A stretch of 49,890 nt of DNA from Bacillota bacterium. Lineage in GTDB: Bacteria > Bacillota > Clostridia > Peptostreptococcales > Acidaminobacteraceae. The stretch spans positions 1 through 49,890 of the forward strand of contig JAGXHV010000114.1 in assembly GCA_024636005.1 (NCBI GenBank). Direction: 5' to 3'. Below the pieces are notes generated by a model. That model was not told where the DNA came from, did no database searches, and saw nothing but the letters and a program-made list of their open reading frames with translations. This document shows, piece after piece, positions 7,745 through 48,062 of this stretch. A program made the position numbers and the translations under genes. Position 1 is the stretch's first letter; every line of letters starts with the position of its first letter.

Positions 7745-7756
7745 ATTATATCAAAC

Positions 7757-7797
7757 AAAAAAGTGTCGACGCAATTTGCTTCGGCACTTTTTTTTTG
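7757..7797 (+). terminator. Terminator after the protease gene
   Basis: AAAAAGTGTCGA pairs with TCGGCACTTTTT (one G-T pair) around an 11-nt loop and runs into nine T residues. It lies 13 bases after the protease stop. Confidence 0.75.
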
Positions 7798-7833
7798 CTC
7801 CGCAAAAAATTACCAATTTGCACCTGTCCCCAA
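7793..7833 (-). repeat. Right half of the composite GGGGACAGG element
   Basis: The stretch TTTTTGCTCCGCAAAAA followed by ACCAATTTGCACC and TGTCCCC matches the right end of the composite element at 6106-6143 nearly base for base. The left end is absent, so this is a truncated copy, fused to the terminator of the protease gene. It ends two bases before the stop of the ABC permease gene on the other strand. Confidence 0.65.
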
Positions 7834-7834
7834 A

Positions 7835-32223: not shown

Positions 32224-33093
32224 ATGGATAGGAAAGCGTTACTTGATGCAGTTGAAAACATAAACATATGGAAAAAGCATTCTCAAAGGGCACCACATAA
32301 ACCTTTGTTGATTTTATACGCATTGGGTCGATTTCAAACCGAACGATCAGAGCGATTCGAGTATGAAGAAATCAAAGATTCGCTAAAAGGTTTATTAATA
32401 GACTTTGGTCCTAATAGAAAATCCTATGACACAAAAGATCCTTTCGTGAGATTACAGAGAGATGGAATATGGCAGCTCAGTATGGAGAGAGAAAGTATCG
32501 AACTTAATGATCGTTGGTTACTCAACAATCATGTGACAGGTGGTTTCAATTCAGACGTTCTGAATCTGATCAAGCAAGATGATAATTTGATCAGAAAGAT
32601 TGCAGAAAATATACTGGACAGTCATTTTCCTGAGTCCATCCATGAAGACATTCTTAGTGCAGTGGGACTCGATTTGAGTCATACCACTAGACGAGTGAGG
32701 ATACGTGATCCGAAATTCAGAGACAAAATTCTTAGGGCTTATGGTTACAGTTGTGCAGTGTGTGGTTTCAATGTACGGATGGCACATCAATTGGTTGGTG
32801 TGGAAGCTGCACATATCAAATGGCATCAAGCGGGTGGACCAGATATAGAAAGCAATGGTTTGGCACTCTGTTCAATGCATCATAAACTGTTTGATCATGG
32901 CGTGTTTACAATAAACAATGATCTTCGTTTTATCGTTTCTCAAAATGCTAATGGTTCAAATGGACTGAATGAATGGTTGATGCAATTTCATGGTAAAGAA
33001 GTTCGAGGTCCAATTCAGGAAATATATGTGCCTAATGAAGATTTCTTACATTGGCATGTTAAAGAGGTTTTTAAGGGTGATGGTAGGTATTAA
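32224..33093 (+). CDS. SBD-HNH endonuclease, phosphorothioate-DNA-dependent type IV restriction family
   Basis: The 289-residue protein has an N-terminal sulfur-binding-type domain (residues 10-110) with the conserved SQRAPHKPLLILYALGRF at 20-37. The C-terminal HNH domain (about 165-235) has zinc cysteines Cys177 and Cys180, EAAHI with His197, and NGLALCSMHHKLFD with Asn211, Cys216 and the His pair 219-220. Enzymes of this family cut foreign DNA bearing phosphorothioate links made by Dnd systems. No dnd genes lie in the window, as expected for a host that attacks modified DNA. GAAGGAG precedes the ATG. The NurA-like gene follows 33 bases later. Confidence 0.88.
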   Translation: MDRKALLDAVENINIWKKHSQRAPHKPLLILYALGRFQTERSERFEYEEIKDSLKGLLIDFGPNRKSYDTKDPFVRLQRDGIWQLSMERESIELNDRWLLNNHVTGGFNSDVLNLIKQDDNLIRKIAENILDSHFPESIHEDILSAVGLDLSHTTRRVRIRDPKFRDKILRAYGYSCAVCGFNVRMAHQLVGVEAAHIKWHQAGGPDIESNGLALCSMHHKLFDHGVFTINNDLRFIVSQNANGSNGLNEWLMQFHGKEVRGPIQEIYVPNEDFLHWHVKEVFKGDGRY

Positions 33094-33126
33094 TTTTACT
33101 CTTACTGTATAATAAAGGAGTTTTTT

Positions 33127-34137
33127 ATGGAAAATTCGCTTAACAATGTATTAATAATTCAAGACAATTATTATGAAATAGTAAAAGATATAAGTAAAAT
33201 GAAAAAATCATTACCAACGATATCTAACGTTGATAACGCAAATTTTCCAGGTTTTGTATACCCTATAAATGGGAAAACAATAAATACATTAGATAGTGTT
33301 CATAAAGTGAAACTAAACCCATATGATAGTGAGTCTTTTGAGAGACCTGTATTTGCTTATGATGAGTCAATTAGAAAATTTAGTTGTTTAGAAGGAGATG
33401 GATATCTTACAGGACATTCCTTGGTTCATATTGAAAAAAATGATTATATTCCTGTTGGATTGATTTCATTCTATTTTTACACTAGATCGAAAATTATTCA
33501 GGAGAGTTCAAGCTTTATACGTTTCAGCACGGATATTGAGATGGATTCAAAAAGAGACTACATAAGAGACAGAATTAAATTCCTAAGTGATCATACACCT
33601 GAAAATTCTATATTATTAATTGATGGACCTTTAATAGCTGGTGATGTGTACACATATATGATTCAATCAATGAAATTATTTTTAGACAAAAACATTATCC
33701 CCGTTTTTTTTGTTAAAAACAGTAACAGTAATATGGTTAGTGATGCTATTGAAACAATAAGAAATCAATATAATTCTGATTTGCATTGGGCATATGAATA
33801 TTTATCACAAGGCGAAAGATCAAATTATTTTTACTATCAGGATAAGATTAATTCTAAAAATGCTAAGGTATTTTGCTATATAAAGGCATTTAATAAGAGC
33901 CCACAAAGAATTGAATTTTATGTTAGTACTTTCGAGAAACATAAAAACGAGATAGATAAGATAATTGAACAAGTATACTATTATCTCTTGGTTCAAGGAC
34001 CTAAAAACCCACAAGTTAGACCCATTGCAATTGCAGAGTTGTACGCGAGAGAATACTTGAGCATAGTTAATTTTGAGAGTGTATTCATGAATAGTGGTTT
34101 GATTCCAACTATGAATCAAGAAAGATTTGGAGGTTAA
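33127..34137 (+). CDS. NurA-like nuclease
   Basis: The 336-residue protein fits the NurA domain in its second half: the metal-binding Asp166 in ILLIDGPLIAG, the IIPVFFVKNS strand near 200, and the C-terminal RPIAIAELYAREYL near 298-311, all typical of NurA. The usual N-terminal DGS motif is not obvious; Asp79 in FAYDES may replace it. NurA is a 5'-end nuclease that acts in a complex with the HerA hexamer. The next gene encodes HerA, separated by a few bases, so the two surely form a complex. AAAGGAG precedes the ATG. A TATAAT just before it suggests an internal promoter. Confidence 0.82.
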   Translation: MENSLNNVLIIQDNYYEIVKDISKMKKSLPTISNVDNANFPGFVYPINGKTINTLDSVHKVKLNPYDSESFERPVFAYDESIRKFSCLEGDGYLTGHSLVHIEKNDYIPVGLISFYFYTRSKIIQESSSFIRFSTDIEMDSKRDYIRDRIKFLSDHTPENSILLIDGPLIAGDVYTYMIQSMKLFLDKNIIPVFFVKNSNSNMVSDAIETIRNQYNSDLHWAYEYLSQGERSNYFYYQDKINSKNAKVFCYIKAFNKSPQRIEFYVSTFEKHKNEIDKIIEQVYYYLLVQGPKNPQVRPIAIAELYAREYLSIVNFESVFMNSGLIPTMNQERFGG

Positions 34138-34140
34138 TTG

Positions 34141-35715
34141 ATGAAGTGGATAGTTCTTGGTGAAGAAAAAGGGCTGATAAAAATGGTTTCTAAAAGTGGT
34201 ACTGATGGATTGATTCCAAAAGGTGCATACTTGACAATTGAAAAAGCTGATAACAAGTTCATTCTAAGAGTAGATGATAGTAAGCAAGATGAACCTTATA
34301 GTCCATCTCCTTTGGTAATTGATATGAATTTAAAACCAATGCTACAGGATCAAAAATGCCAAAACATTATTTATGCTAGAAGAGTAAAGGATTTAGTGGA
34401 ACGAGTTGATGGATTAATTGATTTTATTCCAGCACTTTCCATTGCTAGAAGATCAAATCAAGAAGAGATTGAATTGGCACTAGGTGGTGGTTCAAAAAAT
34501 AATGGACCAACAGTTATGTTATCAACAATACACTCGAGTAGAAGCCAACTCTTAACGGATGAAAACAATAACCCAATAATTATTAATATTCCCGAGAATT
34601 TTTTCTATCATCAAATTATGATCTGTGGTAGAACTGGAAGTGGGAAGACAGTAGCTTCTAAATATCTGGCTGAATACTTTACAGAAGTACTTCAAGGTGC
34701 AGTTATTGCAATAAATGTGAAGGATGATGATTTTTTACACATGGATAAGCCTTCAAGAACATCAAAGAAAGATGTTTTAAAAGAATGGGAAGTGTTAGGA
34801 TTATCACCAGTAGGTTTGGAAAATTATACTATCTATTTCCCAGCAAATATTGATTTTAAAACTGTCAAAAATATAAATGAAAAGAAATGCAAAAAAATTA
34901 CATTAGATGTGAAATCAATAGATCCTGAAGCTCTGTCTGGTTTAATTCGTGGAATATCTGATATTGGAGCACAAAGTTTACCAAGTATTTTTAGATATTG
35001 GCAACAGTTGGAATCTAAGAAAAACGCTAATTACAGATTTGTTGATTTTGTAAACTATTTCTCTTTGGCTCAAAATGATGGAAAGAGTTTTAGAACTATG
35101 AATATTAGATACGAGGAATCATCAGAAATCACACTACATTCAGGAACATATAATAACATTCTAAGAAATTTAAATAATGCTGTAGATTTTTTTGATAATC
35201 CAAACTCTGAAACAATCGGTGCAGACGATATCTTACAAAATGGAAAAATGTCAGTGATAAACGTAGCTGGTCAAAAGGGTGTTGAGTTTGGAGCTATTCT
35301 GTTAAGGCACCTTCTTCACCAGATTGTTGAAACAAAATCTCAGAGAAGAAGCGATGTACCAGTTTTGATAATAATTGACGAAGTCCATCAGTTTTACAAT
35401 AATGAAAGCTCTAAAGAAACCTTGGGTGATATTGATACAATTTGTAGGACGGGAAGAAGCCAAGAAATTGGTGTGATTTTCTCTTCTCAAAATCCTTCAG
35501 ATATTCCGAGGGGGCTTTCTAGCGTTATAAACACAAAGATTATTTTTAAGTCTGATTCATCTACTGTTAAAGCTCAAGGAATTAACTTCAATACAGAAGA
35601 ATTAGAGAATTTAAGGACAGGTTATGCAGCTGTATCTATTCATAATTTATCACAGGTTAAGTCAGTAAAGTTTCCAATGGCATCGTCAGGAGTTTTTGAA
35701 AAGGAGGAAAAATAA
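34141..35715 (+). CDS. HerA-like hexameric ATPase/translocase
   Basis: The roughly 524-residue protein is a HerA/FtsK-superfamily ATPase. An N-terminal beta-rich HAS-barrel-like domain (1-110) precedes Walker A GRTGSGKT (163-170), Walker B VLIIIDEVHQF (near 415), an arginine-finger region RTGRSQEIG and the sensor strand VIFSSQNP. It should move along double-stranded DNA and drive the NurA nuclease. I chose the ATG at 34141, seven bases after GGAGG; a TTG at 34138 is in frame. Its stop codon overlaps the start of the 48-residue gene as TAATG. Confidence 0.88.
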   Translation: MKWIVLGEEKGLIKMVSKSGTDGLIPKGAYLTIEKADNKFILRVDDSKQDEPYSPSPLVIDMNLKPMLQDQKCQNIIYARRVKDLVERVDGLIDFIPALSIARRSNQEEIELALGGGSKNNGPTVMLSTIHSSRSQLLTDENNNPIIINIPENFFYHQIMICGRTGSGKTVASKYLAEYFTEVLQGAVIAINVKDDDFLHMDKPSRTSKKDVLKEWEVLGLSPVGLENYTIYFPANIDFKTVKNINEKKCKKITLDVKSIDPEALSGLIRGISDIGAQSLPSIFRYWQQLESKKNANYRFVDFVNYFSLAQNDGKSFRTMNIRYEESSEITLHSGTYNNILRNLNNAVDFFDNPNSETIGADDILQNGKMSVINVAGQKGVEFGAILLRHLLHQIVETKSQRRSDVPVLIIIDEVHQFYNNESSKETLGDIDTICRTGRSQEIGVIFSSQNPSDIPRGLSSVINTKIIFKSDSSTVKAQGINFNTEELENLRTGYAAVSIHNLSQVKSVKFPMASSGVFEKEEK

Positions 35716-35861
35716 TGGATAATCTACTTTTAGAGTTTTTTGATGAAATTCTTGGAGATGATCTGATATTGATGATTGATAAACTGTATGAGCAAGGATT
35801 ATCTTCAGAAGAAGTATTAGAAAAAATCCTGTTGAAAGGAGATGATCTTAAAAATGATTGA
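35715..35861 (+). CDS. 48-residue acidic protein within the NurA-HerA operon
   Basis: This short gene is overlapped at both ends: its ATG shares a base with the HerA stop, and its TGA overlaps the start of the SMC-like gene by eight bases. AAGGAGG precedes the ATG, a strong ribosome binding site. The protein (MDNLLLEFFDEILGDDLILM and onward) is acidic and predicted almost wholly helical. I do not recognise a family. The tight coupling argues that it is a real subunit or adaptor rather than a chance frame; it would be missed by a length cut-off. Confidence 0.7.
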   Translation: MDNLLLEFFDEILGDDLILMIDKLYEQGLSSEEVLEKILLKGDDLKND

Positions 35862-37962
35862 ATATAATTATTTAATTGATCGTAATGAAGGAAACGAGTG
35901 GGTGAGATATACCCCGAAAGGAATTCCCCAAAAGTTGCCGCCTCTTGTTTATATTGAAGGGCCAAACTCTTCTGGAAAAAGCACACTATTAAACTTGATA
36001 GCACTTTCATTTAATGGGCATAAGAGGAATGATATAAATCCAAATTTACGAAAAAAAGTTGAAGCTTTACTTGATACTACTTATCAAAATTTAGATTTCA
36101 ACCTAGAAATCGCATATGGACAAAGTAAGCTTAAGATTTCTAAAAGTAATAATAGTGATAAAATTATTCGAGAATTGGTTGACGATACTAATCAAAAGAG
36201 ATTATTAATGACTACCGATCTGATGGAAGAAAAATATAATTTGATTTATGATATCCCAGAAAATCCAATTACAAGACTTAATGATATGAGTAAAAATTTA
36301 CATCTTGCACAGACAAAGCAATTAGAAAAAATCACTCACTACATTGAGCAATATAGGGATATTTTGAACGATGTGAAAAATTCTAGAGATGAGAATAGAG
36401 TTAATAGTTTACAAATTGAAATAAGAAACCAGAAAACAATTTATGATGAACTTCAAGCTGAAATTGATAAAGAAAGAGAAGTATTAGAAATTGTTCAAAA
36501 GTATGCATACACAAGAGCATATAGAAAAACCACATTGGAATTACAAGAAGTTGAAGAAAAAATTGCAGATGAGAAGTGGTTTGAAAACAAGTCTAAAATT
36601 AAAAGGAATAAAGATTTAGATAAATTGCTTTCAGAATTTGATAAATTCAAAATTAGTGTTAAGAGTGATTTAAATAATTTAATAAGTAATCTTGGGTTGA
36701 TTAAATATGATAAAAAAAAGATAAATGAGTTTAGTAAATTTCAAAAAGAACCTGTCTATAAATTGACATTTATTCAAAAGAAGTACTATAACTTGATTGA
36801 TAGTACTCTTGACGACTTGAAAAAAATTGATAGAACACAGGCACAAAAGGCATATTCTAAGATTTCTGCATATAATGAATTGATTAATGTTCTTGAGAAA
36901 TATAAAAATGATGACTTGGAATTACCAGGTGAAAAGGGAAAATTCTATGATTTGTTAATAACTTTGAAGACAGAAGTGTACAAAGACTATGAATTAACAA
37001 CAAGTTTTCAAGCAATTGATGATTCAATTGATTTATTAAAGTCTCTAAGAGATTCAGTAAAACATATTGACACTCAACTTGTACCAAAATACCAAAAAAT
37101 TAAATCAAACGATAATGATGATGGTTTTTCAAATAATATTGATGTTGAAAAACTGGAAGAAAGAAAAAAATATTTGAAGAATCTGCAAAGTGAATATTCT
37201 AATTATTGTACTTTGTATAATGTAAATTTAATTGATGATGACAATATTCATAGTGCAATTCAAAACATTAAGAATATTCAAGGTAATGAAGTTTATCGCA
37301 ATAACAAGGATGATGACAATTTCAAATTAATTGAGTCAATGGAAATCATGCTCAATAAAAAAATAATGAAAGCAAATATGATTGATGGAATGATAAGTCG
37401 AGAAGTTGAGAATTTAGAAAAAATAAAGAAAATGAGTCCTCATGGTTTACACGGGAAATCAGTGCAAATTGAAGAGGTTATCAAACGATTGCAAAAAAGC
37501 CAAACTCAATTAAAAAAATATAATGAGTATTTAGACTCTCTGATTCATCACGCTGAATCAGAACTCAAAAATATTGATCCTGACAAAAAAAGCTACTTTG
37601 AAAAAGTATCAATATATTTGGGAAAGCATCTAGGTATTGTTAGGCACGTAGATCAAAATTATAGAGTTGAAAAGGTAGATTTAATTACTAAACAACTGAT
37701 TACTGAGGGCCATAAAGTCATTAGGTTTAATGATATGGGTACCGGTCAAAGTCAAGCCGCTTACTTGTTAAGTAAACTCAGCTCAATAGATGAAAGAAAA
37801 GTTGTTGTTTTATTTGATGAGATTGCAATGATGGATAAGGTTTCTTTAAAACCGGTCTTTGATAAACTACATGAATTATACGAAAAAAAAATATTAGTTT
37901 GTGCTGTAGTTGTACAAAAATCAGATGTTATAAATGTAAAATCACTTGGAGAATTTTTATGA
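35854..37962 (+). CDS. SMC/Rad50-like ATPase
   Basis: The 702-residue protein has Walker A GPNSSGKST at residues 36-44, long coiled coils (about 140-250 and 390-590), and a C-terminal ATPase half with the signature-like DMGTGQSQAAYLLSKL and Walker B VVVLFDEIAMMD near 650. That is the SMC/Rad50 plan with a short arm. The family signature is TGQSQ rather than LSGGQ. I chose the ATG at 35854; the in-frame ATG at 35842 touches the GGAG site. Together with NurA and HerA it recalls the archaeal HerA-NurA-Mre11-Rad50 group, though no Mre11 is encoded. The ORF ends in an ATGA overlap with the next gene. Confidence 0.85.
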   Translation: MIEYNYLIDRNEGNEWVRYTPKGIPQKLPPLVYIEGPNSSGKSTLLNLIALSFNGHKRNDINPNLRKKVEALLDTTYQNLDFNLEIAYGQSKLKISKSNNSDKIIRELVDDTNQKRLLMTTDLMEEKYNLIYDIPENPITRLNDMSKNLHLAQTKQLEKITHYIEQYRDILNDVKNSRDENRVNSLQIEIRNQKTIYDELQAEIDKEREVLEIVQKYAYTRAYRKTTLELQEVEEKIADEKWFENKSKIKRNKDLDKLLSEFDKFKISVKSDLNNLISNLGLIKYDKKKINEFSKFQKEPVYKLTFIQKKYYNLIDSTLDDLKKIDRTQAQKAYSKISAYNELINVLEKYKNDDLELPGEKGKFYDLLITLKTEVYKDYELTTSFQAIDDSIDLLKSLRDSVKHIDTQLVPKYQKIKSNDNDDGFSNNIDVEKLEERKKYLKNLQSEYSNYCTLYNVNLIDDDNIHSAIQNIKNIQGNEVYRNNKDDDNFKLIESMEIMLNKKIMKANMIDGMISREVENLEKIKKMSPHGLHGKSVQIEEVIKRLQKSQTQLKKYNEYLDSLIHHAESELKNIDPDKKSYFEKVSIYLGKHLGIVRHVDQNYRVEKVDLITKQLITEGHKVIRFNDMGTGQSQAAYLLSKLSSIDERKVVVLFDEIAMMDKVSLKPVFDKLHELYEKKILVCAVVVQKSDVINVKSLGEFL

Positions 37963-38840
37963 ATCCTAAAATTGATCTGTTGAAAGTATTACATGATAAC
38001 TTAATGACGTTATTAGCATTAGATAATAAACTTGTTCAAAATTCTGTACTATTGTCATTTTTTAATTTCAAATCAAATATTCGTTTTAACTATCTATTAA
38101 AAGCAGCTCAAAATGCAGACAATATTCCAGATATAATAATTAAAGATCTATTGGAAAGTGGTGATATCCGAGAAATAGGAGATATGAATAATTATACAAT
38201 TACTGGTAAAGGAATTTGGGAAATCGAAAGGGATTACAAATTAACAGAAAATCAGTTAATTAACTTTATTGATACGAAATATTTCGTAGTAGAGTCTGAA
38301 AATAAAGATTTAAGTGATAAGGAAAAGGTAATTCTACTTTCGTTGATTGCAATTAGAGCATTCTCAGGTGAATTTTGCATTGATCTTAAAAGGAGTGAAT
38401 ATTTATTAGAATCTATGAAACGAATTATTGATGCTTCGCATGAAATATTGTTCGATTTAGGTGTAATCACAATGCAATATTCAAAGTTATATGGCAAAAA
38501 AGGTAATGAGCACATGGTAAGTAATTTGATTAGACATACAGACAGTTTACCCAAGAAGACAAAATCATTCTTTTATGCTCCAGGTGATCAAAAATATTAT
38601 TTAAATATCATTGAGGGTGGTACTATAGGTAAAAAAGATTTATTGTGGTTGTTGAAAAGAATACTTGGAAAGAATGTGATAACGGATTTAGAACAGTATG
38701 ACAGATTAAAAACATTTTTCAACACTATACCGTATAAAGAGGGATACTTTGTCTTTGAGAATATTGATAAATCGTTTGTCAACCATGAGATCGATGATCT
38801 TATTGAGGTGATTTTAAAGGAAATGATTTTTGAGTTCTAG
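37959..38840 (+). CDS. Last protein of the NurA-HerA-SMC operon, unknown function
   Basis: The 293-residue protein starts at an ATGA overlap with the SMC-like gene, so it is translationally coupled. Residues about 40-100 look like a winged helix (NIPDIIIKDLLESGDIREIG then YTITGKGIWEIE, with the usual helix-helix-wing order). The rest is a mix of helices with no motif I recognise and no membrane segment. A DNA-binding or clamp-associated role is inferred from the context only. The longer frame from 37899 would overlap the SMC-like gene heavily and is unlikely. Confidence 0.75.
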   Translation: MNPKIDLLKVLHDNLMTLLALDNKLVQNSVLLSFFNFKSNIRFNYLLKAAQNADNIPDIIIKDLLESGDIREIGDMNNYTITGKGIWEIERDYKLTENQLINFIDTKYFVVESENKDLSDKEKVILLSLIAIRAFSGEFCIDLKRSEYLLESMKRIIDASHEILFDLGVITMQYSKLYGKKGNEHMVSNLIRHTDSLPKKTKSFFYAPGDQKYYLNIIEGGTIGKKDLLWLLKRILGKNVITDLEQYDRLKTFFNTIPYKEGYFVFENIDKSFVNHEIDDLIEVILKEMIFEF

Positions 38841-38905
38841 GGTGATTAAAATTGATCAATTTAGGTGTTAATTTCAGTTATTTAATAAAATTATGGAGTA
38901 AGTAA

Positions 38906-39286
38906 ATGAAAACAATAGAAGTAGTTGCAGCAATCATATTGGTCGAGGGAAAAGTCCTTTGCATGCAAAGAAATCACTCGAAGTATGAATCAGGTGAAAA
39001 TAATTCTATAGATTAAAAGATTGAGATTAGTGAAGTCATGGATTTGAAATTGACAATATGTGACCAATATTTTTTTATGACAGTTGATATGACTATACTG
39101 ATTGATAATGTTTTTTTATGTCTATCTTTGTATAACTAAAAGTATTTAATTCAAAATGAATGGAAATATAGCATCAACTTGATCAATGCAGCAAATTGAT
39201 CAAGCAGATATACCACAAAGGATCTTGACTTGACAGGGGCTGATGTTCTAAATTTTGAGAAATTAGTATCAGAGGATATTATATGA
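38906..39286 (+). pseudogene. Decayed MutT-type NUDIX hydrolase gene
   Basis: An ATG at 38906 behind GGAG opens MKTIEVVAAIILVEGKVLCM, the typical start of an 8-oxo-dGTP diphosphatase (MutT). The frame stops after 36 codons, before the NUDIX box. Further on, YFFMTVDMTILIDNVFLC (near 39070) matches the later strand of MutT proteins and LTGADVLNFEKLVSEDII (up to 39286) its last helix, in other frames. The NUDIX box itself is not visible. The gene is therefore deleted internally and frameshifted. Confidence 0.65.
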
Positions 39287-39307
39287 GTTCTTCTTAAGAT
39301 TTAAGAC

Positions 39308-39720
39308 GACATTTTTAATAGATACATTGATGATGAGATAAAGTATTGTGATGAGTCTTGGCTCTCAATTGCTGTTGTCACAACTGCTGGAATGACAACA
39401 TTAAAAGAATTTGAGAAGAGAAATGTCAAAGATGTGATTATCGCTTCTCAGGATTTGAATTTTTCTCGGCCAAATGATCAACTCAATGTATCAATGGCAA
39501 CTTCGAGAGTAATTTCGCAATAGCAATATTTTAAAGGATTCAAATGAGATAATTATTGAAAGTGGTACTGAGTTTCTGACACTCACTAAACTGTGTGGCA
39601 ATGAGAAAAATCTTGTGGTATTTGACGATAATCTAATTTGTAAAAAAGTTTTGATGATTTATAGTATTCACAAAACAATTTATATAAGCTACTACAATTC
39701 TATAGCTTAACCAATTTTAC
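39308..39720 (+). pseudogene. Second decayed gene, family uncertain
   Basis: An open stretch at 39308-39523 reads DIFNRYIDDEIKYCDESWLS and continues with VVTTAGMTTLKEFEKRNVKD before a stop. The order of elements is reminiscent of the PLD-like domain found at the front of some restriction-type helicases, but this is a weak guess. After 39523 coding potential continues in another frame (NEIIIESGTEFLTLTKLCGN, near 39545-39620). No start codon is visible, so I regard it as debris. From 39720 to 39923 I see nothing. Confidence 0.4.
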
Positions 39721-39923
39721 AAGATTTGAATACTCTGGAAATTACTTCAGATATATAGTTATGATACACATTTAATTAATATAGGATATACTAGTATTAT
39801 ATATAATACTGAAAAGTTTTATACATTAAGTTATGATGATATAAAGTCAAAGAACTACTAAAAATATGACGTTTATGAATTCTTATTATTAAATCAAATG
39901 ACAATAATAAAAGCGGGGGTAAT

Positions 39924-40661
39924 ATGAGTACGAAAACAATAAAATCAGTTAGTAAGTTTATTGATATTTTAAAATCAGAAAATGCTAAAGATACAAATGC
40001 TATAAACTGGTATAGAGGTCAAGTCAATAAAGAATGGGGGTTAATACCATCATTGCTTCGTACGAATTTTTGCGAGGAAGATCTAATCAGCAAATTTAAG
40101 CAAAATGCAAAGTTACTTATTTCATCTCCTCCTGTACATGAATTAGAATGGCTACTTATAATGCAACATTATGCGATGCCCACTAGACTACTTGATTGGT
40201 CTGATAATCCCCTTGTAGCATTATACTTTGCTGTTGTTGATGAAGAGCAGTCAAACAATGAAAAAGACGGTGCGTTCTGGATATTATCACCAACAAAGCT
40301 TAACGAACTTGCAAATATAAAACTTGACGAAGTTAGGATCCCCTCAACTGATGATAAGCATATTGAAAATTACTTCCCATCAACACTAAAGTATGAAAAA
40401 ACTACAAGTATGAAGCCCATTGCTATAATTCCTCCTCGTAATACTCAAAGAATGCAGGCCCAATCAGGTGTGTTTACCATCTGGCATCGTGATATTACCC
40501 CGATTGAAAAGTTAGAAAAAGGTTCTTGTGTGTCAAAATACATAATTCCAGCGGATTCTAAACTGCTCATTCTAAACGAGTTAAATTTCCTTGGATTCAA
40601 TAGATTTAGGTTGTTTCCTGAATTAAGTAGCATAGCAGCATTGATTAAGGAGGGCAGATAA
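39924..40661 (+). CDS. FRG-domain protein
   Basis: The 245-residue protein has the FRG domain over nearly its full length: the naming motif appears as INWYRGQ near residues 27-33, followed by the conserved LIMQHYAMPTRLLDWSDNPLVALYFA (split here: QHYAMPTRLLDWS and NPLVALYFA) near 78-103. FRG-domain proteins occur in many bacterial defence and toxin loci; their activity is not settled. The next gene, DUF262, starts two bases after the stop, so both form one unit. A GGGGG site precedes the ATG. Confidence 0.88.
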   Translation: MSTKTIKSVSKFIDILKSENAKDTNAINWYRGQVNKEWGLIPSLLRTNFCEEDLISKFKQNAKLLISSPPVHELEWLLIMQHYAMPTRLLDWSDNPLVALYFAVVDEEQSNNEKDGAFWILSPTKLNELANIKLDEVRIPSTDDKHIENYFPSTLKYEKTTSMKPIAIIPPRNTQRMQAQSGVFTIWHRDITPIEKLEKGSCVSKYIIPADSKLLILNELNFLGFNRFRLFPELSSIAALIKEGR

Positions 40662-40663
40662 TT

Positions 40664-41734
40664 ATGAAATCATATCCTTTAGTTAATAATAATATTTTGA
40701 GAATAAATTTTGAGAAAAAAAAGGTATTTGTAAACCCAGAATATCAAAGAGAAGGTGATATTTGGACATTAGACAAAAAACAATTGTTAATTGATTCTTT
40801 GTTAAATGATTATGATATACCAAAATTATATTTTCATGTATTATCTGAAAAATTTAAGAAGGAGAAAAATATAAACTCTGTATACGAATATGCAATTGTT
40901 GATGGAAGACAAAGAATGGAAACTATTTGGGGATTCATTAATGGTGATTTCAACTTATCTCCAGATTTTGAATATTTTGAAGATAAAATAGTTCGTGCTG
41001 GAAACTTATCTTATAGTGAATTAGGGATAAAATACCCTGAGTTAAAAGTGAAATTTGATTCAGTTCAGCTACCAATTGTATGTGTAGAAACAGATGAGAT
41101 CGATGTAATTGAAGACATGTTTTTAAGACTTAATGAAGCAGTCTCTCTTAATGCAGCAGAGCGCAGAAATGCAATTGGCGGCTTCTTAATTCGTACAGTT
41201 AGCAATTTGTCTCTGCATGAATTTTTTAAAACTAATGTTAAGTTTTCCAATAAAAGGTATCAACATCGAGAAGTAGCTATTAAACTATTGTATTTTGAGC
41301 ATACAATAGATGAGGATAATAAAATCATGGATACGAAAAAAGTATATTTAGATGAGTTTGCTAAAAAGAATAAAGTCAAAAATAAGAGTAAAATTGAACA
41401 ATATGAAAAAAACGCTAAAGAAACTCTTGATTCTTTCAATAAAATATTCAATGAAAAAGACATTTTACTTCGATCTCAATCAATTGTCCCTATATACTAT
41501 TTAGTTTTTAACAATTTAAAGAAGAAAAATTCAAATTCTCTTTTCACTAGAGATATGATTGAAGAATTTAGGATCGAATTGAGTGAGAATTCTAAAGTTG
41601 CAGCTCAAAATATTGAAAAAGCCGATTACGATCTACTTGAATTTTCACGTTTATCATTGCAAGGTACTAATGATGCTAATTCAATAAAGGAAAGAGTCAG
41701 AATATTACAAGAATATTTGACTAATAATAAATAG
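40664..41734 (+). CDS. DUF262 protein (ParB/Srx-fold, GmrS-like N-terminal domain)
   Basis: The 356-residue protein has the DUF262 features: the entry motif VNPEYQREGDIWTLDKKQLL near residues 22-41 and the catalytic-type DGRQRM near 84-89, the equivalent of DGQQR in GmrSD type IV restriction enzymes and in ParB/Srx proteins. No GmrD-like HNH domain (DUF1524) follows. DUF262 domains use nucleotide hydrolysis in restriction. Being coupled to an FRG protein, the pair may be a two-gene defence module. A long helical C-terminal half has no motif that I recognise. Confidence 0.85.
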   Translation: MKSYPLVNNNILRINFEKKKVFVNPEYQREGDIWTLDKKQLLIDSLLNDYDIPKLYFHVLSEKFKKEKNINSVYEYAIVDGRQRMETIWGFINGDFNLSPDFEYFEDKIVRAGNLSYSELGIKYPELKVKFDSVQLPIVCVETDEIDVIEDMFLRLNEAVSLNAAERRNAIGGFLIRTVSNLSLHEFFKTNVKFSNKRYQHREVAIKLLYFEHTIDEDNKIMDTKKVYLDEFAKKNKVKNKSKIEQYEKNAKETLDSFNKIFNEKDILLRSQSIVPIYYLVFNNLKKKNSNSLFTRDMIEEFRIELSENSKVAAQNIEKADYDLLEFSRLSLQGTNDANSIKERVRILQEYLTNNK

Positions 41735-41889
41735 AATATATTCAAATAAAATGAGGTTATGTTAAGTTTGGAATAATGTTTTTTGACACAGTAGCAGACT
41801 TGGTTCAAAGCGTTCAAAATGAACGTTACTATACACTAGAACTCCTGTGCACCCAAATTTAAAACACCAACGTTAGTATATAATGTTAA

Positions 41890-41928
41890 CAAGAACATAT
41901 ATTCCCTAAGAACGAATATATGTTCTTG
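41890..41928. promoter_or_regulatory. Large palindrome over the -35 box of the RHH-methyltransferase gene
   Basis: CAAGAACATATATTC (41890-41904) and its exact inverse (41914-41928) are separated by nine bases. The right arm overlaps the -35 box (41926-41931). It is probably the operator of the methyltransferase's own RHH domain. It might also end transcripts of the DUF262 gene upstream, as TTTT follows. Each arm also resembles an imperfect LexA/DinR box (GAAC-N4-RTTC). Confidence 0.7.
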
Positions 41929-41954
41929 TTTTGTATTGGAAAAAGGGTTATAAT
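41926..41954 (+). promoter_or_regulatory. Promoter of the EcoRII-like restriction-modification operon
   Basis: TTGTTT (41926-41931) and TATAAT (41949-41954) are 17 bases apart. The start codon is 29 bases past the -10 box with GGAGG between, so the leader is short. Confidence 0.7.
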
Positions 41955-41982
41955 TGATACAACAATAGACCCGGAGGACCAT

Positions 41983-43113
41983 ATGAGCAAAAAAAAATTA
42001 CATGTTAGTTTAGATGAGACCATATACGAGACTTTACATGAAACAGCAAACACTAGCAACACATCCATGAATGCAATTGTAAAGGAGTCGATTATCAGTT
42101 ATCTTCATCAACTACAACATAAGCAGAAATTGGGAGACAGGTTGTTTACATTTATCGATCTTTTTGCAGGAGTAGGTGGTATGAGGTTGGGGTTTGAGAG
42201 CGTTGGTGGTGAATGCATTTTTTCAAGCGAATGGGACAAATACTCTCAAGAGACATACTTAGCAAATTTTGGTGAACGGCCAGCAGGTGATATTACTAAG
42301 ATTGATGAATATGAAATTCCTAATCACGACGTTCTGGTTGCAGGTTTTCCATGTCAACCATTTTCACTAGCAGGTGTTTCCAAAAAAAATAGTCTCGGAC
42401 GAGAGCACGGTTTTAAAGATAAAACTCAGGGAACTTTATTCTTTGACATAGCGAGAATTTTAGAGGTGAAGCGGCCTAAAGCGTTTTTATTGGAAAATGT
42501 TAAAAACTTAAGATCTCATGACAAAGGAAAAACATATAAGATTATTATTGATACACTGAAGGAATTGAATTATCACATATTTGAACAAGTAATCGATGGT
42601 AGTGGCTATGTACCTCAACATAGAGAGCGAATTTTTATAGTAGGTTTTGATGCAAATATTTATGAACAAGCACCTAAATTTATATTTCCGACTTCCAATG
42701 TCAAATATAGGGTAAGTGATATCTTAGAAAAAGATGTTGAGGATAAATATACATTATCGGACAACCTTTGGTCTTATCTTCAATCACATGCAGAAAAACA
42801 CAAAAAGCTTGGAAATGGTTTTGGTTTTGGAATTGCTGATTTGAATGGCTCAACCAGAACTTTAAGTGCTAGATATCACAAAGATGGATCTGAAATACTT
42901 ATACCTCAAGATCAAAAAAACCCAAGAAGATTAACACCTAGGGAATGCGCTCGGTTGCAAGGATATCCAGAGGAATATAGAATTGTTGTTTCAAATACAC
43001 AAGCATATAAGCAGTTCGGAAATTCAGTTGTAGTCCCTTTGATTTCTGCTATTGCCAATGAAATGGTGAAAGTGATCGAAACAGATGAAAGGATAGTACA
43101 AAATGTCGTATGA
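41983..43113 (+). CDS. Cytosine-5 DNA methyltransferase with N-terminal RHH domain (EcoRII/Dcm-like)
   Basis: The 376-residue protein has a ribbon-helix-helix-like domain in residues 5-44 (KLHVSLDETIYETLHETAN, then SMNAIVKESIISYLHQ). The methyltransferase starts at residue 56: motif I FIDLFAGVGGMRLGFE, motif IV GFPCQPFSLAG with catalytic Cys124, motif VI LLENVKNL, motif VIII PQHRERIFIVGF, and motif X GNSVVVPLI. The REHGFKDKTQGTLFFDI and TLSARYHKDGSEILI segments are typical of the Dcm/EcoRII group, so the target is likely of CCWGG or CCNGG type. I chose the ATG at 41983 after GGAGG. The endonuclease gene overlaps by 11 bases. The RHH domain and the palindrome over the promoter suggest self-repression. 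Confidence 0.9.
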   Translation: MSKKKLHVSLDETIYETLHETANTSNTSMNAIVKESIISYLHQLQHKQKLGDRLFTFIDLFAGVGGMRLGFESVGGECIFSSEWDKYSQETYLANFGERPAGDITKIDEYEIPNHDVLVAGFPCQPFSLAGVSKKNSLGREHGFKDKTQGTLFFDIARILEVKRPKAFLLENVKNLRSHDKGKTYKIIIDTLKELNYHIFEQVIDGSGYVPQHRERIFIVGFDANIYEQAPKFIFPTSNVKYRVSDILEKDVEDKYTLSDNLWSYLQSHAEKHKKLGNGFGFGIADLNGSTRTLSARYHKDGSEILIPQDQKNPRRLTPRECARLQGYPEEYRIVVSNTQAYKQFGNSVVVPLISAIANEMVKVIETDERIVQNVV

Positions 43114-44260
43114 TATTCATTTAAGTATATCTGATGCCCAACTTGTATATTGCAAATTTTTGTCTGCAAATGATGTTGGTTTAACTGGAGGACATCAGAG
43201 TGGTCCGTATGTTGCAAAATCAGCAGTATCAATTCTTTTTGAAGAACCTTGTGTCAGAGGAAGAAATAAAACTAAAACAGTGAATATTCATTGGCATGAT
43301 GATAGTATCACTGAAAGTAATTTTAAATATTATGGTTCGGGAACTCGAAATGAATACAGAATTACGACCTTTGGACGAGGATTTCCATACTTTAAACCAT
43401 CAAATATTGGTTCTTTGTTTATTTTATGTAAGATAGATACTGAAACATTTAGAGGATACGTGATTGAAGATGAACTTGAAATTGATTCTTTTTTGGATTA
43501 TTACGGTTTATCACCTGCAGAAACCAATGCTTTACTTGATGTCAATGATTCAGCACATGAAGATGCACAACTCAAAAGATTTGTTGATCAGATAAGTGGT
43601 GATTTTCCCTCTACTTCTGAAATTGCTTTGCAAGCTAGAAGTGTTCTTACTGGAATTCTGTTGAGAAAGCACATGAATGCGATATCACAACCAGACCAAA
43701 CATTGGTTAATTGGTTGAAGTATGAGTACTTGTTGTTCAAAGAAATTGAAAAAAAATTCAATCAAGATATTCTAGAAGTACCATTTACATCAATTGATGA
43801 TTTTGTGAATAGAGCAAATAGCGTGTTGAATAGAAGAAAGAGCAGAGCTGGAAGATCACTTGAAAATCATCTATCAGAAGTCTTTAGAATAAATTCATTA
43901 AGATTTGTGGAACAAGGAACTACTGAGCAAAATAAGAAACCGGATTTTCTTTTTCCAGACGAGAGAACATATTTGGATTCACTAACTACCTTTGAATATG
44001 ATAAGCTAGCAATGCTCGCAGCAAAGACAACCTGCAAAGATCGTTGGCGACAAATTCTTACAGAGGCAGATAAAATTGAAACAAAGCATCTTTTTACTCT
44101 ACAACAAGGAATTTCGTCCAATCAATTGAATGAGATGAAAACTCAAAAAGTCCAGTTGGTCGTACCGAAACAATATATTTCAACATATCCGTTAGAGCAT
44201 AGAGAATGGATATGGGATCTTAGTAAGTTTGTTCGGTTTATTAAGGAAAAGCAATCGTAA
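43103..44260 (+). CDS. EcoRII-like type II restriction endonuclease
   Basis: The 385-residue protein follows EcoRII throughout. The N-terminal effector-binding domain spans about 1-170, and the C-terminal catalytic domain about 205-385 with GRSLENHLSEVFR (250-262), KKPDFLFP (278-285, metal-binding Asp281) and LAAKTTCKDRWRQIL (305-319, Lys308), then TLQQGISSNQLNEM. EcoRII cuts CCWGG and needs a second copy of the site bound at the N-terminal domain. It overlaps the methyltransferase gene by 11 bases, so the methyltransferase is always translated first. A terminator lies 386 bases downstream. Confidence 0.92.
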   Translation: MSYDIHLSISDAQLVYCKFLSANDVGLTGGHQSGPYVAKSAVSILFEEPCVRGRNKTKTVNIHWHDDSITESNFKYYGSGTRNEYRITTFGRGFPYFKPSNIGSLFILCKIDTETFRGYVIEDELEIDSFLDYYGLSPAETNALLDVNDSAHEDAQLKRFVDQISGDFPSTSEIALQARSVLTGILLRKHMNAISQPDQTLVNWLKYEYLLFKEIEKKFNQDILEVPFTSIDDFVNRANSVLNRRKSRAGRSLENHLSEVFRINSLRFVEQGTTEQNKKPDFLFPDERTYLDSLTTFEYDKLAMLAAKTTCKDRWRQILTEADKIETKHLFTLQQGISSNQLNEMKTQKVQLVVPKQYISTYPLEHREWIWDLSKFVRFIKEKQS

Positions 44261-44944: not shown

Positions 44945-46993
44945 TTAAGTAGTTGCAATTTCTGATCTTAATCGCCATTCATCACGTTCTAAAAATCCCA
45001 ACTTGGTGTTGATCTTTCTCGATTCTTCGATAAAATCTTTGTACATTATATTCACATTATTTAGGATTCTTGAATATTTCAATATTTCAATATTGTTTTG
45101 GTCAAGAAATCTATCAAGTTCTTCACTATCTAATTTATCAATCTTATCATTCTCTTGCCATATTAGGATACATTTAATATCCAATCCTCGGATAGACCTT
45201 CCTTCCGCATCGCTATAATGACGAGCAGCTGATTCTCTATAATTATCAATTTGCTCATTGATTTGATATTTAGTAGGTGTGTAACTCAATGGATCTGGTC
45301 TTTTTAACTCAATTAAGACTGGATTTGAAGATCGGTTGGGTTGTCTCAACAAGATATCAAATCTTTTATTTCTTATTTTGGGATCCTTCTCATTAAACTC
45401 ATCCTGTAACTTTTTCTCCATAGTTTTATAATCGTGAATATCATCCCAATGTGGATCTATTAACCATAAATGTTCAAATAACAATTGATGAAGTATTTTT
45501 TCTTTAGCGTTCGCCTGAACATGTGCTTCAAGCTTAGTTATAATACTTAATCGGTCATCAATAATCTTTCGATATTTAATAGCTTCTAGATGAGCTAGTT
45601 GTCTAAATTTCAAAATGATATGTTCAATCTGTTGATCTTCTTCTTCCAAAGCTTCGTGAAAATCAAGTAGCGTATCCATAGTGAACGCATCTTCAAAAGC
45701 AAAGATCGCATTTTTTATAATTAATCGTTCTTGAGTTTGATCATGAAATTCAATTTTGGCAATTGATTGAAACATTTTCTGTAAAATTTTTTGAGCAGTA
45801 CTGTTATCTTTATAAGACCTTACCCACTCAGTAACATCCGGATACTTATCTTCAATAATTTTGATATTTGCTAATGGTCGTTCTCTTGCCCAAATATTAA
45901 TTACTTCTTTAAGTTTCTTGTCAATAAAATCAATAAAACAAATCACTTCGGGAATTGAATCGTCCAATCCTTGACGACTACTAGTTATCGGATCATCTAA
46001 AAGATTTATAAAATCGGCGTCAATTCTACCTACTAGGTAAGAACGTGACATTTCATTACCTGAAATCTTCCTCATTAAATCTTCATCTGCTACTTTATGA
46101 TTATGAAGTACTTGAATTGTATTGAGGTTGTCTCCTTCTTCAGTCTTATTATACCCACTTTTAAAATATGTTCCAATCCAACCACTGAAGTTCAGTTCAT
46201 CTCCTTCATCTGTTTTCAATATACCGCTTTCTCTAGTAATTCTACTAAGATCAACAGTTACTTGACCCTTAGTATCAGTAAAGGTCTGCATAATTTGATT
46301 ATATTCATCTTCTGAGTTTGAAAATACCCACAAGAACTGAATTTTCCCAGCAAAATATTTTTCTTCAAAGTCCATAGAATTTGAATCAATAGTTACTTTA
46401 AAGTCATCATTGATATTAAGGAGTGAAAATCTTCTTCCTAATTTTTTGACAAGAGCACTCTTAGTTTGCCCAGCTATTGGTTTTCTCAAATTAAAGATTT
46501 CAATTACTGTTCCGGTTTCAACACTACTGAAGTATTCATTAACTTCTGGAAGAATAGTCACCTCTACATTAAATTCGCCCTCTACTTCTTTCATTTCATC
46601 ATAATTCAACGTAAATTTTCTTGAGATATTGTCAGTATCTGACTTAGTAATTACATTATAGTCGTCTCCTAAAGAAAAAGCAGCTAGTTTACCAATCCCC
46701 TTTTTTCCCATTGGAGACCTTTCGCTCATATCTGTTGGGATTCTTATACCCCTCAAGCTTTTCTCCGCACCAATTGGGCAATATCTTTCTTGTAATTCGG
46801 TGTATGACATCCCAATCCCGCTGTCCCGAATAATAATACGATCTCCTTCGAATGTAATTGATACACTTTTAGCATATGCGTCCCATGAATTTGCTACAAG
46901 CTCTGCTAATGCTGCAGATAAATTATCGTATAGTTTTCTTCCTAAATGAGTTATAGAACGCAGTCTTACATTAAATAGTAATTGTTCACTCAT
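44945..46993 (-). CDS. GHKL (MORC/Hsp90-like) ATPase fused to a PD-(D/E)XK-like nuclease
   Basis: The 682-residue protein begins with a GHKL ATPase: N-box ALAELVANSWDAYA (28-41), G1 RDSGIGMS (56-63) and G2 GKKGIGKLAAFSLGD (96-110). A middle helical part follows, and the C-terminal part (about 535-640) has RFDILLRQP and VLIELKRPDP, then IKCILIWQEND, which gives the D-x(n)-ExK order of a PD-(D/E)XK nuclease. MORC-like ATPases with such domains are known from bacterial restriction systems. It starts at 46993 with GGGAGAAG before it, overlapping the end of the methyltransferase gene by eight bases. It should be the restriction half of that pair. Confidence 0.85.
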   Translation of the reverse strand: MSEQLLFNVRLRSITHLGRKLYDNLSAALAELVANSWDAYAKSVSITFEGDRIIIRDSGIGMSYTELQERYCPIGAEKSLRGIRIPTDMSERSPMGKKGIGKLAAFSLGDDYNVITKSDTDNISRKFTLNYDEMKEVEGEFNVEVTILPEVNEYFSSVETGTVIEIFNLRKPIAGQTKSALVKKLGRRFSLLNINDDFKVTIDSNSMDFEEKYFAGKIQFLWVFSNSEDEYNQIMQTFTDTKGQVTVDLSRITRESGILKTDEGDELNFSGWIGTYFKSGYNKTEEGDNLNTIQVLHNHKVADEDLMRKISGNEMSRSYLVGRIDADFINLLDDPITSSRQGLDDSIPEVICFIDFIDKKLKEVINIWARERPLANIKIIEDKYPDVTEWVRSYKDNSTAQKILQKMFQSIAKIEFHDQTQERLIIKNAIFAFEDAFTMDTLLDFHEALEEEDQQIEHIILKFRQLAHLEAIKYRKIIDDRLSIITKLEAHVQANAKEKILHQLLFEHLWLIDPHWDDIHDYKTMEKKLQDEFNEKDPKIRNKRFDILLRQPNRSSNPVLIELKRPDPLSYTPTKYQINEQIDNYRESAARHYSDAEGRSIRGLDIKCILIWQENDKIDKLDSEELDRFLDQNNIEILKYSRILNNVNIMYKDFIEESRKINTKLGFLERDEWRLRSEIATT

Positions 46994-48035
46994 GAAATTC
47001 TTCTCCCTGCCTAATATGATTAATGATTTGCTCTCCAACTATTTCACCTAGCCTTACTGGAACAGCGTTTCCTATATGTCTTGTTACTGCACCTTTTTTG
47101 AATTCTTGGCCTTCTTCATAGAAAATATAGTCCATTGGAAACGATTGTAGTATTGCTCCTTCTCTAATAGATAACGCTCGATCTTGTTCCGGATGTCCAA
47201 AACGTCCGTTTCCAAAACCATTAAACTGCGTCGTAATAGTAGGCGAAACTTTATCCCACATCATCCTTCCGTAGACGCTACTATACGTTCTACCGGATTC
47301 TTTTAAATGACACTCAGCAACTAACTCTTTGTCCCAATCTCTCCAACTACCACCTGGAACTGATTGCCTAATTCTTCTCATGTTTAAATCTGAAAGCGAT
47401 GAACATTGATGAATAATATCCTCTTGATTTATTTCTCCAGATATAAGTGGTGGAAGATGTCCAATTGCTTCTCTCACTGTCACATAATTTTCAGGTGTAT
47501 GTGTCGCATCAGGCATTCTTATTTCGCCATGTCTTGTTGCAATAAGTACCAATCGAGTTCTATTTTGAGGAATTCCATAATCAGGGCAGTATATCAGATC
47601 ATAGACAACAGAATATCCTAACTCTTTTAGTCCTGTAACAAAACCTGTAAATACTTCCTGTCTTATGAGATTAGGAACATTCTCCATAGAAACATAATCC
47701 GGCATAACTTCTCGAACAAGTCTTGCAAATTCATCTAGCAAGTACCACTTATCAAGTTTCCTTTCCATGCTAACACTGTTTGAATAATTTGAGAAAGGTT
47801 GACAAGGTGCACATCCAACCAAAACTGTATAATCAGCACCTTCGAAGTACTCATTTATCATTTGACTTGTAACAGATCTGATGTCTGTGGGAATAAACTG
47901 AGCATCATTATTCACTTCATATGCAAATCGGCAGGTTTCATCAACATCAATCCCAGCTACTACATTAATTCCTGCTCTTTGTATCCCATGGGTTAAGCCT
48001 CCAACCCCGCAGAATAAGTCAACTGCTACTGGCAT
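46986..48035 (-). CDS. Cytosine-5 DNA methyltransferase
   Basis: The 349-residue protein has motif I VDLFCGVGGLTHGIQRAG (5-22), motif IV GCAPCQPFS with catalytic Cys78, motif VI SMENVPNL, motif VIII IPQNRTRLVLIA, and motif X HIGNAVPVRLGE. The target-recognition region is between about 195 and 290. GGAGG precedes the ATG at 48035; a longer frame to 48059 is less likely. It is cotranslated with the MORC-like ATPase-nuclease downstream and is not closely similar to the EcoRII-like enzyme, so the target site differs. Confidence 0.92.
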   Translation of the reverse strand: MPVAVDLFCGVGGLTHGIQRAGINVVAGIDVDETCRFAYEVNNDAQFIPTDIRSVTSQMINEYFEGADYTVLVGCAPCQPFSNYSNSVSMERKLDKWYLLDEFARLVREVMPDYVSMENVPNLIRQEVFTGFVTGLKELGYSVVYDLIYCPDYGIPQNRTRLVLIATRHGEIRMPDATHTPENYVTVREAIGHLPPLISGEINQEDIIHQCSSLSDLNMRRIRQSVPGGSWRDWDKELVAECHLKESGRTYSSVYGRMMWDKVSPTITTQFNGFGNGRFGHPEQDRALSIREGAILQSFPMDYIFYEEGQEFKKGAVTRHIGNAVPVRLGEIVGEQIINHIRQGEEFHE

Positions 48036-48062
48036 AATTACCTCCATAGATTTTCTCACTCT

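Follow-up and report, generated by a model that had tools for sequence, protein, structure and literature searches.

A patchily distributed operon of NurA, HerA, a small acidic protein, an SMC/Rad50-like ATPase and a winged-helix protein is a candidate undescribed defence system

Organisation of the operon

Within the window (the whole 49,890-nucleotide stretch of DNA that was analysed), five genes form a single plus-strand operon in a low-GC defence island that also carries restriction genes:

33127 to 34137, plus strand: NurA-family nuclease (336 aa); PF09376, E = 1.3e-11, exceeding the Pfam cut-off
34141 to 35715, plus strand: HerA hexameric pumping ATPase; HerA_C, E = 6e-10, and DUF87, E = 7e-7
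35715 to 35861, plus strand: p48, a small protein of 48 residues with a net charge of -10; open reading frame and leave-one-out HMM
35854 to 37962, plus strand: SMC/Rad50-like coiled-coil ABC ATPase (703 aa); AAA_23, E = 1.7e-6
37959 to 38840, plus strand: last gene (293 aa), product with an N-terminal winged helix; AlphaFold2 (AF2) fold matches

The genes are closely packed, with a spacing of 3 nt between NurA and HerA followed by overlaps of 1 nt between HerA and p48, 8 nt between p48 and the SMC-like gene (20 nt if an alternative ATG at 35842 is used; relatives align from the later start at 35854) and 4 nt between the SMC-like gene and the last gene. An alternative TTG start for HerA lies at 34138, and a longer open reading frame beginning at a TTG at 37899 was listed for the last gene. 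Open reading frames, domain matches and junctions all bear out the close-packed, one-strand arrangement of five genes described in the initial annotation. Promoter and terminator signals were no more abundant than in shuffled sequence, and the window contained no tRNA.

Distribution and evolution

The neighbour search around homologues that had been proposed in the initial annotation recovered the five-gene set at 18 further loci, giving 19 with the window, in both bacteria (Bacilli, Bacteroidota, Chloroflexota and Neomarinimicrobiota) and archaea (methanogens and relatives, plus one Thermoplasmata archaeon), with one further locus on an IMG/VR contig; weak NurA matches in genomes G589 and G1010 were excluded from the locus set. 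A constant housekeeping locus in related genomes was also looked for, but among 391 genomes from the window's class, and likewise among 299 from its phylum, the cassette had a single carrier, the window's own genome. HerA had no match in plasmid or phage records, nor NurA in plasmid records. The four larger proteins coevolve, with core distance correlations of rho = 0.69 to 0.91 (0 of 2000 permutations as high), and in the tree archaea and bacteria interleave, supported branches forcing at least three changes. In whole-genome searches of the 18 hosts, PF09376 itself detected the NurA of the cassette in 11, and a second NurA-family match lay outside the cassette in 9; catalytic residues could be mapped only poorly onto these second copies, with nothing conspicuous beyond a DGP block and three single positions, and the wrong open reading frame had been taken at some loci. 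On the grounds of patchy distribution and the second NurA, a housekeeping repair locus was rejected. Because the cassette is rare, its core coevolves, the two domains interleave and half of the hosts carry another NurA, the sequence comparisons indicate that it is a horizontally moving accessory unit.

Conservation of the component proteins

NurA was present at all 19 loci, and the cassette sequences share invariant acidic and DG positions; a search of solved structures with the NurA profile returned a single match, an implausible chain. NurA and HerA stand in tandem, with matches to PF09376 and to PF05872/PF01935 that all lie above cut-off. Window HerA was matched by a solved HerA structure at 2e-8, and the mean identity among 18 HerA sequences was 55%. 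The absence of Mre11 from the operon, noted previously, held for the ten window proteins scanned (32224 to 44260), none of which was Mre11-like.

The gap between the HerA and SMC-like genes holds an open reading frame of 46 to 63 aa in all 18 loci with a readable gap, and its product is net negative in 17, in keeping with the acidic small frame originally described there. When a leave-one-out HMM was run over all six frames of each locus, p48 ranked first in 16 of 18 (E < 0.01 in 15 loci, E = 0.021 in L034), and a chance open reading frame was rejected for those 16. By that test p48 is unproven at L011, where it ranked fourth (E = 0.35), and at L031, where it ranked third (E = 1.6). The conservation of p48 and the last gene, on which the initial annotation had depended, therefore holds for both across the loci, save that p48 is unsupported at L011 and L031.

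The AF2 model of the SMC-like protein (pLDDT 82.4, pTM 0.45) has a fold near those of Rad50, Smc5/6, MukB and the Lamassu LmuACB and Wadjet JetABC chains. Foldseek matched it to Rad50 at E = 2.1e-12, the TM-score being low owing to the coiled coil, and comparison with Rad50 3qku_A gave Z = 12.7 with an rmsd of 4.9 over 300. The Walker A Lys and Walker B Asp-Glu are intact in 16 of 16 members. The signature at the LSGGQ position does depart from the consensus, although the TGQSQ first reported there was off register by two residues: the correct reading is MGTGQ in the window, and L008 has LSTGQ. The SMC-like protein and the last gene product are the most divergent core proteins (mean identity 25% each).

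The last gene was found in all 17 readable loci. Residues 1-110 of its AF2 model (pLDDT 89.1, pTM 0.73) matched winged helices with a best Z of 6.1, residues past 110 being barely covered, which upholds the winged-helix-like description given earlier; the product is likely, judging from this model, a DNA-binding or SMC-partner subunit. MukF, MukE and JetABC chains recur in its best 50 Foldseek rows, none of which reached E 0.001. Since this similarity to SMC partners was not significant and general winged helices scored as high or higher, an identity as a kleisin or KITE protein, like JetA and JetB of Wadjet, was not adopted and is a lead only. Neither a viral structure library (no row at E 0.001) nor a sequence-profile search of solved structures yielded a relative; stray matches, each in one of 16 members, were to PbeC (7.7e-5), DUF4364 (2e-4) and HTH_45 (0.003), and no member matched LmuA or LmuC.

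Neighbouring genes and the D12 methyltransferase

Defence genes also lie near other copies of the cassette: type I restriction-modification genes, including a type I methylase, at L002 of Neobacillus piezotolerans; PD-Lambda-5 A and B at L006 of Mucilaginibacter straminoryzae; a C5-methyltransferase and a Sau3AI/MutH-like gene at L011 and L034; and an LmuB-like gene (E = 5.3e-30) 3.6 kb from L030. A C5-methyltransferase is likewise near the window's cassette. Such neighbours were not found at every locus, several flanks being ordinary or too short. The initial reading of the operon is supported, except that an association with methyltransferases had been overlooked. A D12 adenine methyltransferase adjoins the cassette in 11 of the 17 loci with readable flanks, the adjoining enzymes belonging to two subfamilies, one per locus. 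It is missing at the other six (the window, L002, L004/L057, L010, L011 and L034), and genome-wide searches gave no D12 match in G000 (only 77% complete), G430 or G439. Across the 18 host genomes there were ten D12 matches of at least 77 bits, nine of them cassette copies.

Distances among the D12 enzymes showed no correspondence with core distances (rho = -0.18 to 0.15, n = 10, the L009 fragment being omitted), and D12 as a coevolving sixth core gene was rejected. Since its sequence relationships do not mirror those of the core, D12 looks like an exchangeable partner of the cassette. A GATC specificity shared among the D12 enzymes, as in Dam and Sau3AI, is not claimed, the Dam recognition motif not being evident in the D12 alignment. 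With D12 missing at six of 17 loci, the window's included, self-marking can be no general rule unless another enzyme supplies the marking.

The frequent adjacency of D12, the near restriction of its strong matches to cassette copies and the recruitment of two subfamilies would all fit a true restriction-modification system, in which D12 is an obligatory self-marker and the SMC-like, winged-helix, HerA and NurA proteins make up an unconventional ATP-driven restriction enzyme directed at unmethylated sites. A different methyltransferase would then substitute where D12 is lacking, and the C5 enzymes near L011, L034 and the window and the type I methylase near L002 are candidates; these, however, may serve their own systems, and the loci and genomes without D12, together with the independence of D12 and core distances, make this alternative unlikely.

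Comparison with known systems

PADLOC, NCBIfam and Pfam matched single domains only, and the gene set was not described among the literature matches listed, an earlier mention in an ABC-ATPase classification or FtsK-HerA survey being possible; no already named system emerged from either source. The designation as a candidate undescribed defence system is therefore supported by the distribution and by the library and literature searches, its defence part being drawn from context.

The HerA-NurA pair of archaea and Deinococcus, found with Mre11-Rad50, shares with the cassette the same two enzyme families in tandem and a Rad50-like ATPase. The cassette, in contrast, has no Mre11 gene in its operon, adds p48 and the winged-helix gene, and is patchy and island-borne; nine of its 18 hosts have another NurA besides. 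Its SMC-like protein resembles Rad50 in having ABC heads and a coiled coil but lacks the CxxC zinc hook in 15 of 16 members, the single exception being a CIEC in L007. It is improbable, although repair has been a setting for work on HerA-NurA (PMC9960219, in excerpt) and NurA, HerA and a Rad50-like ATPase share one operon here, that the cassette is a horizontally moving accessory cluster for DNA repair or end resection, analogous to archaeal HerA-NurA-Mre11-Rad50; the missing Mre11, the patchy distribution beside a second NurA, the defence-island setting and the D12 partner all argue otherwise.

Lamassu (LmuA/B/C) and Wadjet (JetABCD) resemble the cassette in combining a short SMC/Rad50-like sensor, a helper subunit and a nuclease, whereas the effector of the cassette would be HerA-NurA. 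The Walker B Glu is generally replaced by Gln in LmuB (PMC10586767, in excerpt) yet kept in 16 of 16 cassette members, only four of which match the LmuB profile (best 4.7e-12), and a scan of ten window genes gave no match to LmuA, LmuC or the nuclease JetD. For these reasons it is more doubtful still that the cassette is akin to Wadjet or Lamassu and, with HerA-NurA as its effector, either acts mainly on plasmids or kills the infected cell, even though the SMC model matches LmuACB and JetABC chains as well as Rad50 and MukF, MukE and JetABC recur among the weak matches of the last gene.

In HerA-SIR2 and HerA-DUF4297, too, a HerA ring is coupled to a second enzyme in the context of defence (excerpts of PMC12977600 and PMC11291478); in the cassette the partner is NurA, SMC, p48 and winged-helix genes are added, and neither SIR2 nor DUF4297 was matched in the scanned window genes. 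HerA/FtsK capture and BREX-related capture join HerA to a nuclease and rapidly evolving winged helices (excerpts of PMC10853773 and PMC12839542), but their partners are other ATPases and nucleases, and NurA is absent from the main text of both sources. The methyltransferase subunit family of PD-lambda-5 is that of the D12 at L006, L008 and L009, whereas L006, in a search that covered part of the loci, was the sole locus to yield its A subunit, which adjoins the cassette there. MADS consists of eight mad genes. PADLOC mad8 matches window HerA at 3.4e-15 and 10 of 16 SMC members (best 9.9e-9), and mad3 matches 2 of 16; only these two appeared among the matches listed for ten window genes (for the C5-methyltransferase, the best 25 of 61).

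Proposed mechanism

The reading that we favour, by a narrow balance of probability, is that the cassette spreads horizontally and defends its host by destroying invading DNA. It is supported by the retention of the gene set at 19 loci, the coevolution of the core, the interleaving of archaea and bacteria, the rare and patchy occurrence, the defence genes in the island and beside other copies, the second NurA of half the hosts, the nearness of the SMC fold to Rad50, Smc5/6, MukB, Lamassu and Wadjet and the divergence of the SMC-like and last proteins. Against it stand the lack of HerA matches in plasmid and phage records and of NurA matches in plasmids, the copies without defence neighbours, the unsupported p48 at L011 and L031, the insignificant resemblance of the last protein to SMC partners and the loci that lack D12. 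For Thermococcus HerA-NurA, a 2026 study considered a direct part in end resection unlikely and pointed to a role in defence (PMC12977600, in excerpt). In such a cassette, the SMC/Rad50-like ATPase and the winged-helix protein would act as sensor and loader for incoming or replicating foreign DNA, recognising a DNA end, a hairpin, some other odd structure or a missing modification; ATP-dependent engagement would pass the DNA to the HerA ring, which would pump the duplex for degradation by NurA. Encoded between the two modules, p48 may link them or restrain the nuclease until the sensor fires. The attached, exchangeable D12 probably marks self DNA, and the window's copy would operate either without a methyltransferase or with a different one.

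More tentatively, the cassette could represent a new class of DNA-sensing immunity, in which an SMC/winged-helix sensor, HerA-NurA and a small acidic coupler are combined with interchangeable methyltransferases that set self against non-self and are gained and lost as the cassette passes between bacteria and archaea. If so, a single machine would unite HerA-based with SMC-based immunity, possibly coupled through a tiny protein, and methyltransferases would serve it as exchangeable marks of self. By tying a distinct NurA-HerA pair to a putative SMC sensor in a mobile, island-borne unit common to bacteria and archaea, the cassette brings the choice between repair and antiviral roles of HerA-NurA within direct reach of a test.

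The five-gene cassette and its surroundings

The initial annotation had proposed a five-gene operon with overlapping or nearly touching genes at this site, and the reading frames proved to be real and to make up a single operon, with junctions in gene order of +3, -1, -8 (or -20) and -4 nt. The NurA-like and HerA identities given to the first two genes also held in domain searches. Neither p48, the 48-residue protein, nor the product of the last gene had any match in Pfam or PADLOC, and in NCBIfam the two together returned a single match at chance level (E 0.23, last gene).

Features of the cassette and its surroundings (coordinates, strand where noted, identity)
32224-33093, strand of NurA, phosphorothioate-DNA restriction endonuclease gene (HNH; NF045808, 376 bits), ending 33 nt before NurA
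33127-34137, +, NurA (above Pfam cut-off, E 1.3e-11)
34141-35715, +, HerA (HerA_C and DUF87 matches)
35715-35861, +, p48, the reading frame between HerA and SMC
35854-37962, +, SMC/Rad50-like ATPase
37959-38840, +, last gene, 293-aa protein
39924-41734, FRG-domain gene, then a GmrSD_N gene resembling NsnA (PADLOC PDC-S15 3.7e-54; NsnA 3.6e-26)
41920-44260, C5-methyltransferase gene overlapping an EcoRII-type restriction endonuclease gene, 3 kb downstream of the cassette
44945-48059, -, gene for an HATPase_c_3 protein and, overlapping it, a second C5-methyltransferase gene

The window is a complete contig (49,890 bases) of a 2.5-Mb genome that is 77% complete. GC content left of 32 kb was 37-47% per 2-kb window, except for 31% at 18-20 kb, and fell to 27-36% across 32-48 kb. 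The defence-island setting was likewise upheld, in that restriction endonuclease, FRG, GmrSD_N, C5-methyltransferase and EcoRII genes, and the HATPase gene with its adjoining C5-methyltransferase, surround the cassette within this low-GC region. The phosphorothioate-DNA restriction endonuclease gene is possibly co-transcribed with the cassette, which is followed by a broken frame (38905-39290) that we take to resemble a NUDIX (MutT-like) remnant. An AbiEii-type nucleotidyltransferase (18922-19995; 5.5e-19) was found within the other low-GC stretch (31%).

Conservation and distribution of the cassette

Searching genome contigs with HerA as the query recovered 11 loci, from bacteria (Neobacillus, Mucilaginibacter, Chitinophagales, Flavobacterium, Leptolinea and Neomarinimicrobiota) and from archaea (labelled Methanosarcinales, Methanoperedens, Methanococcoides, Thermoplasmata and Methanofastidiosum). 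One putatively viral IMG/VR contig and six further genomes also carried the cassette, for a total of 19 loci including the window. NurA and HerA were present in 19/19 loci (L029 stops within HerA), SMC in all 18 readable loci (L005 is cut at the contig end) and the last gene in 17/17 readable loci. Gene order and direction were constant, as far as each contig shows, outside L011 and L034, where NurA is inverted and placed behind the other cassette genes. In L004, from a Methanoperedens MAG (6937-8446), SMC is interrupted after ~50 residues and continues on a separate contig, L057, which may reflect an insertion or an assembly fault.

A reading frame of 46-63 aa occupied the HerA-SMC gap in 18 of 18 readable loci and was net negative in 17 (+1 in L009; just -1 in L012 and L031). 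When an HMM built from the remaining loci was run against the six frames of each omitted locus, the p48 frame ranked first in 16/18 loci, with E < 0.01 in 15 of these; the HMM failed at L011, where the frame ranked fourth (E 0.35), and at L031, where it came third (E 1.6).

In the genomes sampled, the cassette did not prove to be a constant housekeeping locus of related genomes, one of the cases that the initial annotation had set against its own reading. Searches with A4, the alignment of cassette NurA proteins, in genome samples mostly taken from larger groups, matched 1/391 genomes of the window's class and 1/299 of its phylum, in each case only the window's own; an SMC-only search of its family gave 1/41. 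The genomes sampled around Leptolinea (1/249), Neomarinimicrobiota (1/149) and Neobacillus (1/220) likewise yielded only the centre genome itself, and matches were found in 9/237 genomes of the Methanococcoides genome's class (eight strong, one a broken fragment at 1.1e-5) and 3/345 of the Mucilaginibacter genome's class (two strong, one at 6e-4). HerA had no match among 72,556 plasmid and 50,697 phage records, nor did NurA among the plasmid records. Of the 18 host genomes, nine (G431, G432, G433, G435, G436, G438, G534, G574 and G617) carried a second NurA-family match outside the cassette; the Pfam NurA model itself detected the cassette copy in 11.

Pairwise distances of HerA, NurA, SMC and the last gene were correlated (rho 0.69-0.91, n = 16-18; 0 of 2000 permutations as high), most strongly for HerA-SMC. 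Archaea and bacteria were interleaved in the joint tree, in which five inner branches lack resolution and L031 is a long branch; supported branches force three changes, and L007 (Methanofastidiosum) and L008 (Leptolinea) are sisters (100/100). SMC and the last gene were the most divergent (mean identity 25% each) and HerA (55%) and NurA (43%) the least, as expected if SMC and the last gene face a variable target.

Methyltransferase partners

D12, an adenine methyltransferase family, lay against the cassette in 11 of 17 loci with flanks readable at least in part, a count that omits L005 and L029 because they are cut off and includes a fragment at the contig edge of L009.

Loci in which D12 adjoins the cassette (METHYLTRANSFERASE)
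L003, L006, L007, L008, L009, L012, L013, L030, L031, L032, L033

D12 and the last gene share 4 nt in L032 and L033, and D12 is convergent to the cassette in L013 and L030; none was found nearby in the readable flanks of the window, L002, L004/L057, L010, L011 or L034. The 18 host genomes (~55 Mb summed) held ten D12 matches of at least 77 bits, nine of them the cassette copies. By PADLOC family, eight D12 proteins fell into PDLC03247 and three (L006, L008, L009) into PD-Lambda-5_B. D12 distances did not track those of the core genes (rho -0.18 to 0.15, n = 10), and the sisters L007 and L008 carry D12 of different subfamilies on opposite cassette sides. C5-methyltransferases and Sau3AI/MutH-like proteins were present in L011 and L034, and type I restriction genes lie ~1 kb downstream of the cassette in L002 (Neobacillus).

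Other neighbours were also observed. A ~250-aa gene stands beside the inverted NurA in L011 (13774-14514; product matching the Sau3AI C-terminal part, 9e-19) and L034 (10621-11373). PD-Lambda-5 A and B genes are immediately upstream of NurA in L006 (1310-3509), and an LmuB-like SMC gene (PADLOC 5.3e-30) lies 3.6 kb from the cassette in L030 (13875-16286). IS21-type transposase genes (IstB, rve), a possible means of cassette transfer, directly follow the cassette and D12 gene in L012 (7151-9615).

Predicted structures and proposed mechanism

The SMC/Rad50-like identity of the fourth gene was corroborated by its predicted model (pLDDT 82.4, pTM 0.45), which matched Rad50 (E 2.1e-12), MukB, Smc5/6, a Lamassu LmuACB chain (4.7e-7) and Wadjet JetABC, with low TM-scores (at most 0.3), since the coiled coils are dissimilar; Z was 13.0 against Smc5/6 (rmsd 7.2 over 294) and 12.7 against Rad50 3qku_A (rmsd 4.9 over 300). 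All 16 members retained the Lys of Walker A and the Asp-Glu of Walker B and share a YDxP block, and their signature varies within the pattern [MLFIV][GS][TA]G[QLH]; CxxC occurred in one of the 16. Weak PADLOC profile matches among these members were to mad8 (10), PtuA (5), LmuB (4) and mad3 (2). The last gene's model (pLDDT 89.1) contains a winged helix at residues 1-110, with a best Z of 6.1, a level possible by chance.

HerA forms rings that feed duplex DNA to NurA. In the cassette, SMC and the winged-helix protein would form a sensor/loader acting on HerA-NurA as a pump-nuclease, and p48 may couple or restrain the two. The portion of PMC10586767 consulted describes recognition of DNA ends or structures by SMC/Rad50-like ATPases and mentions neither NurA nor HerA; the word NurA occurs 0 times in the portions consulted of PMC10853773 and PMC12839542. 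These three sources and PMC9519451, PMC12977600, PMC9960219 and PMC11291478, each in the part consulted, do not describe the five-gene set, in agreement with the initial annotation, which knew of no system containing it. Within the literature searched, the way these genes are combined, the small protein and an exchangeable methyltransferase partner appear undescribed, while the parts and logic of the cassette belong to HerA-based immunity and to SMC-based immunity too.
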